The notes under the pieces were generated by a model. That model was given only the letters and a program-made list of their open reading frames with translations. It did not search any database and was not told the DNA's origin. Positions 29,415 to 29,678 of a DNA stretch of 64,000 nucleotides are shown here, piece by piece. How positions within the stretch are numbered: the stretch's first letter is position 1; every line of letters starts with the position of its first letter. The position numbers and the translations under genes are program-made. This DNA is from Thermoanaerobacter sp. GTDB taxonomy: Bacteria; Bacillota; Thermoanaerobacteria; Thermoanaerobacterales; Thermoanaerobacteraceae. The stretch covers positions 1-64,000 of the forward strand of contig JADBKJ010000006.1 in NCBI GenBank assembly GCA_014896455.1. Direction: 5' to 3'.

Positions 29415-29678
29415 CAGACTGTAGACAAACTTTCGTAAAGGAGATATTTTGCAATCGGTGCGACTTGTGTGACAAAGCGGCAACAAAACTTAGCGAGACT
29501 GAGGGTGGAGGCAGGGCCGAAGCCAAGGAGGGCGGAGGCGGGCACCTGAGACAGGACGTCGATTGTGCCCGGTACCCTGCCGGAACCCGAAAGTCGAGTT
29601 TAGTTTTGTCGCTTTGGAACATCGGAGTACGATGCAAAATATCTCCTTTGAATATTTTTTAACTTTGTCAACAAACTG
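29415..29678 (+). repeat. Foldback/MITE-like element copy 1
   Basis: cagactgtagacaaac...gtcaacaaactg, imperfect inverted repeat over full length; flanked both sides by taagaggcgtgagacc(g/a)cctctt. Confidence 0.93.

Follow-up and report, generated by a model that had tools for sequence, protein, structure and literature searches.

A Thermoanaerobacter element, apparently an IS1182-type MITE, with whole-terminator duplication and a TwoAYGGAY-like RNA

A repeated element in the glnA-ANTAR terminator

In the window, that is, the whole 64,000-nucleotide stretch of Thermoanaerobacter DNA analysed here, the terminator of the glnA-ANTAR operon is duplicated on either side of a 264-bp element that occupies exactly positions 29415-29678. 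Both bounds are confirmed by the roughly 100 copies in the genome and by sister species in which the site is empty. DNA searches and pattern searches together located about 100 element sites in the 2.22-Mb source genome (a 33-contig draft assembly, G000), and the complete copies from this and sister genomes form a set of 140, of which 120 are distinct. The same glnA-ANTAR terminator is single and element-free in four sister genomes (L252-L255), and in a fifth it holds a different copy of the element, inserted independently. The many copies lack a transposase gene, relatives have empty sites, and judged from its sequence the element is a non-autonomous transposon (MITE), belonging to an IS1182-family insertion sequence (IS). 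This identity had escaped the original prediction, which described a conserved folded structure. The features at the locus and the related copies in the window are as follows.

29391..29414, + strand: left copy of the glnA-ANTAR terminator hairpin, TAAGAGGCGTGAGACCGCCTCTTA, its U-tract gone; a direct repeat, single at the empty sites
29415..29678, + strand: complete MITE, copy 1
29415..29429, + strand: left terminal inverted repeat, CAGACTGTAGACAAA, with a matching end, CAGACTGTTGACAAA, on IS1182-family IS copies
29664..29678, + strand: right terminal inverted repeat, TTTGTCAACAAACTG, identical to the end of four IS1182-family ISs (L127, L128, L148, L149)
29679..29703, + strand: right copy of the terminator hairpin with the original U-tract (TAAGAGGCGTGAGACCACCTCTTTT); identified as a direct repeat and by empty-site comparison
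about 31372-31633, - strand: MITE copy 2, inserted in the terminator that separates a GntR/aminotransferase gene from an M23 peptidase gene
36242..36506, + strand: MITE copy 3, flanked by GAGAGTATTTCGTATACTCTCT hairpins; its sequence is identical in 13 copies
23264..23328, + strand: 5' end (element positions 1-67) of a diverged relative, beside another terminator; its interior differs from there on

Several variants accompany the family. One element (L037:1476-1733) has the MITE ends and the terminator duplication but a different cargo, its interior of about 160 bp being unrelated. Two others, very short at about 56-63 bp (G000 C8:55-110 and C1:30494-30556), consist of little beyond the two ends. 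Another palindromic family, GGGACGGTTC...GAACCGTCC, is also present in the source genome (L093:1490-1560 and the right flank of L087). Elsewhere in that genome, 181 bp from the 3' part of the ANTAR gene (window 29205-29385) are repeated exactly beside a further MITE copy, L004 (L259, G000 C1:76557-76737), so that here too a piece of flank travels with a MITE. Viral contigs gave no match to the element, and plasmids gave one weak partial match, to an unannotated Klebsiella plasmid (H1, NZ_CP061968.1:19591-19689; 99 bp, 75% identity to the RNA core).

IS1182-family ends and whole-hairpin duplications

Because relatives in the IS1182 family are known to target hairpins, the sister genomes were searched for an IS1182 transposase. 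The 15-bp ends of the MITE (CAGACTGTWGACAAA / TTTGTCAACAAACTG) proved to be common to IS1182-family ISs of about 1.56 kb in these species, which measure about 1560-1572 bp, start with CAGACTGTTGACAAA (CAGACTGTAGACAAA in L130) and mostly end with TTTGTCAACAAACTG; in L127, L128, L148 and L149 both end patterns are present with 0 mismatches. Their transposase, of 491 aa, scores 497.6 bits against the IS1182 transposase model NF033551, for which the cut-off is 270. An IS1182-like element has been reported in T. kivui (PMC12056078). The whole-hairpin duplication described below also surrounds several of the ISs (L127, L128 and L149, and L130 with slightly different ends), and since ends and duplications are held in common, we assign the MITE to an IS1182-family IS, which it resembles also in its terminator targets but from which it differs in having a structured RNA core in place of a transposase gene. 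Its end repeats are inverted because the transposase needs them, not for RNA folding. In the draft assembly of the source genome an intact IS1182 transposase was not found, the search returning weak fragments only (best E 4.6e-13), so it is from the sister species that we infer mobilisation in trans. A MITE does not require an intact partner in the same genome, and the partner can be lost.

Strong whole-hairpin direct repeats flank 99 of the 140 complete copies; among 694 shuffled flank pairs, 6 have such a repeat. The repeats beside the copies are mostly 19-30 bp long and are hairpins, the stems of the target duplications measuring mostly 7-12 bp as compared to 3-6 in shuffles. Only one side of the duplication retains the U-tract, and thus one complete terminator remains to the host operon. 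Relative to the terminator, insertions face either way equally often (25:24), and there is therefore no sign of host selection for transcription of the RNA strand.

The closest precedents are IS1272/TnSha1, IS1182-family elements of staphylococci, which likewise target terminator hairpins in both orientations but delete or replace the stem-loop without any target duplication (PMC4923244, PMC5678879). The MITE, in contrast, duplicates the whole stem-loop, and comparison with the empty sites shows duplication rather than replacement at the glnA-ANTAR terminator as well. PMC5678879 put forward, as one possible pathway, a joining at the 5' feet that would result in duplication of the entire stem-loop; this is the product seen here. 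The copies collected here show many times over, at the sequence level, a complete terminator hairpin that an IS1182-type element has duplicated and not deleted.

The flanks of 16 source-genome copies share variable-length pieces of one locus (CGAGAGTATTTCGTATACTCTC...), in some cases following a MITE start that is truncated (L016, L019, L022, L027, L030, L040, L048, L055, L056, L061, L062, L073, L076, L086, L096 and the window copy at 36242). One-ended transposition was considered for these pieces and set aside, target duplications being far rarer in the source genome (34 of 67 copies) than in the other genomes (65 of 73); an assembly artefact or recombination is the more likely origin.

The fold and the evidence for selection on it

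The + strand of the element folds at -117.4 kcal/mol, compared to -72.6 +/- 4.7 for shuffled sequences (z = -9.6). Its principal stems and loops are the following.

29437..29453, + strand: 5' arm of the outer stem, AAAGGAGATATTTTGCA, with covarying pairs at element positions 26-232, 27-231 and 28-230, and 22-236 just outside
29633..29649, + strand: 3' arm of the outer stem, TGCAAAATATCTCCTTT, which pairs and covaries with the 5' arm
29522..29533, + strand: apical hairpin 1 of the fold, GCC-AAGGAG-GGC, GGA at 29527-29529; its loop has undergone 24 changes at the position before GGA and 1, 1 and 0 at G, G and A
29550..29560, + strand: apical hairpin 2 of the fold, GAC-AGGAC-GTC, GGA at 29554-29556

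The letters bear out the stems that the original prediction had named, which were found in all three window copies with the sole exception of AAAGCG, which reads AAAGTG in copy 2. Its paired variants are likewise correct: GACT/AGTC, GACC/GGTC and GACT/GGTC in copies 1, 2 and 3, the apical stems GAC/GTC, GACA/TGTC and GGC/GCC, and GGGT/GCCC in copy 3. Across 95 copies, a stem pair of hairpin 2 is GC in 47 and AT in 45, the loop GGA being kept. A plain MAFFT/RNAalifold consensus misaligned this hairpin and yielded weak structure, and hairpin 2 was realigned around its loop. In 20 copies (for example L008, L009, L066 and L094) GCCTGACGGGG replaces ATTGTGCCCG, a different 3' arm that breaks the GGGCAC/GTGCCC stem; the variant turns up on several sequence backgrounds, as though copies had exchanged sequence.

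Selection on an RNA or single-stranded DNA fold, as had been proposed from the three copies, is favoured by three tests but not by covariation among all pairs: an R-scape-like test of all column pairs in the 120 distinct copies returned no significant pair, the outcome that the proposal had named as counting against it, here in its strict form. The power of covariation testing is low because the copies are young (mean identity 91%). When the test was restricted to the structure, again with 120 distinct copies, four pairs passed, all of them in the outer arm. Pairing has been retained more often than under a tree-based null, both in the outer arm (0.929 vs 0.782 +/- 0.027) and in the core (0.976 vs 0.893 +/- 0.047).

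These paired changes might also be explained without any RNA function, if the inner palindrome were a DNA feature only, such as a cruciform or a transposition substrate, and the changes arose by template switching in replication. That the element is a MITE inserted without orientation bias agrees with this account, and so does the location of the strongest within-family covariation, in the outer perfect arms. The account meets two difficulties, however. The first is strand asymmetry: in the inner stems, Watson-Crick pairs changed to G-U in 66 events and to A-C in 27 (25:4 on internal branches), an excess with p about 0.001 after correction for the mutation bias in unpaired columns, whereas the 22:14 ratio in the end repeats is not significant. 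As events at the same pair are partly dependent, each pair was also scored once, and 22 favour G-U and 7 favour A-C (p = 0.008). In a cruciform the two strands would be equivalent, so the excess on one strand argues against it and points to the + strand, either as RNA or as single-stranded DNA of that strand.

The second difficulty lies outside the genus. The RNA core aligns with a single-copy Thermoanaerobacterium sequence, located between genes for an S41 peptidase and glycerate kinase, in which the core fold is kept and the ends differ from those of the MITE. Between the two, seven pairs have changed on both sides and still pair, compared to 0-2 with slid partners, and 11 pairs are not kept. 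We thus regard the DNA-only account as improbable and consider selection on the fold, most probably at the RNA level, to be reasonably supported. With the ends serving as an internal control, the strand-bias test makes this a natural system for separating selection on RNA structure from selection on transposon ends. In two Thermoanaerobacterium species the homologue lies between the same two genes in opposite orientations (L101, L110), which suggests that it has inverted between its long inverted ends.

A TwoAYGGAY-like core and its possible ligand

Two further features, both on the + strand, concern the RNA itself.

29466..29623, + strand: structured RNA core, a sub-threshold match to Rfam RF01731 (TwoAYGGAY; 28.8 bits, gathering threshold 43)
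29422..29450, + strand: candidate promoter TAGACA-N17-TATTTT, overlapping the left end; the 17-nt spacer is conserved in 139 of 140 copies

The core has the TwoAYGGAY layout, two hairpins with GGA terminal loops inside a long stem, and can be aligned to the whole model (1-168). It differs in score: homologous copies in the genus reach 39.5-40.4 bits, the best of them, like the 28.8 bits of this copy, falling below the threshold of 43, and matches above 43 bits were found in other families. The element gives a physical identity to the Thermoanaerobacter relative of an unexplained Rfam RNA, one that no paper found in our literature search describes as mobile. Requiring a strict NGGA tetraloop on an uninterrupted stem undercounted distant matches, many of which have a 6-nt AYGGAY loop. 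At the candidate promoter's position the ISs carry TTGACA-N17-TATGAT.

GGA is present in both hairpin loops of nearly all copies, and such paired loops, more than one per RNA, are also found in CsrA-sequestering sRNAs of the CsrB/RsmZ type, from which this putative sRNA differs in being MITE-borne and in having two sites only. The near-invariance of GGA is only weakly unusual within the genus, since no more than one change is likewise seen in 46 of the 76 unpaired columns. CsrA binding has been proposed for TwoAYGGAY (PMC4333381), and a CsrA gene is present in all Thermoanaerobacter genomes searched. A common hairpin 2 variant, GACAAGGAUGUC (20 of 95 parsed copies), holds ACAAGGAUGU, which fits the CsrA SELEX consensus RUACARGGAUGU (PMC7652899); hairpin 2 of the window copy (CAGGA) is without the A-N-GGA spacing and fits it less well. 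We tentatively name CsrA as the likeliest ligand. That the transposon family captured the gene of a CsrA-binding sRNA and carried it into about 100 terminators, giving about 200 potential CsrA-binding hairpins, is a more doubtful idea; if true, each insertion would supply its own terminator and a selfish element would titrate or exploit a global regulator, and mobile elements could in this way multiply the binding sites of such a regulator.

The two GGA hairpins, the CsrA gene and the proposed TwoAYGGAY-CsrA link would equally suit a host regulatory sRNA or 3'UTR element, a CsrA sponge multiplied through its benefit to the host. We find this quite unlikely, since the clean transposon ends, target duplications, same-site presence that varies by species and random orientation argue for selfish spread. 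Descent from a retroelement, as the remnant of a group IIC intron or of some other kind, might be suggested by the targeting of terminators, which group IIC introns share, but is hardly credible and was rejected: neither group II introns nor any other ribozyme family appear among the Rfam matches, and whole-hairpin target duplication with inverted ends fits an IS1182 DDE element.

In the best explanation, which we consider probable, an IS1182-family DDE transposase moves the element, a MITE that carries a conserved RNA under selection for its fold. Its family, ends, target duplication, empty site, homology and strand-specific pairing bias can be read directly from the DNA; from these we infer a transposase acting in trans, transcription and a ligand. 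The transposase would recognise the 15-bp ends and join the MITE to both feet of the hairpin of an intrinsic terminator, and gap repair would then duplicate the whole stem-loop, leaving one hairpin copy without the U-tract and one with it; the host operon would keep a full terminator, and a host transcript could read into the MITE. The TwoAYGGAY-related RNA, of about 160 nt, probably derives from the capture of an ordinary sRNA gene present in single copy, and the core may be transcribed from the candidate promoter. The paired changes would then be due to selection for a folded RNA that exposes its two GGA loops.

At gathering threshold, an Rfam search of the window returned only a c-di-GMP-I riboswitch (16150-16237, + strand) and a c-di-AMP riboswitch (63443-63575, + strand), both well above their Rfam thresholds, the core lying below its own. 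In a genome from another family of the order (G020), 26 TwoAYGGAY matches have E <= 0.001, and the majority exceed the threshold. Copies there and one other (L231-L245 and L250 in G020; L097) share ends, ..ACTGTAAAAACC / GTACACTAAAATC, that differ from those of the MITE, with possible short target repeats, and the G020 copies may perhaps represent a second, independent mobile carrier.
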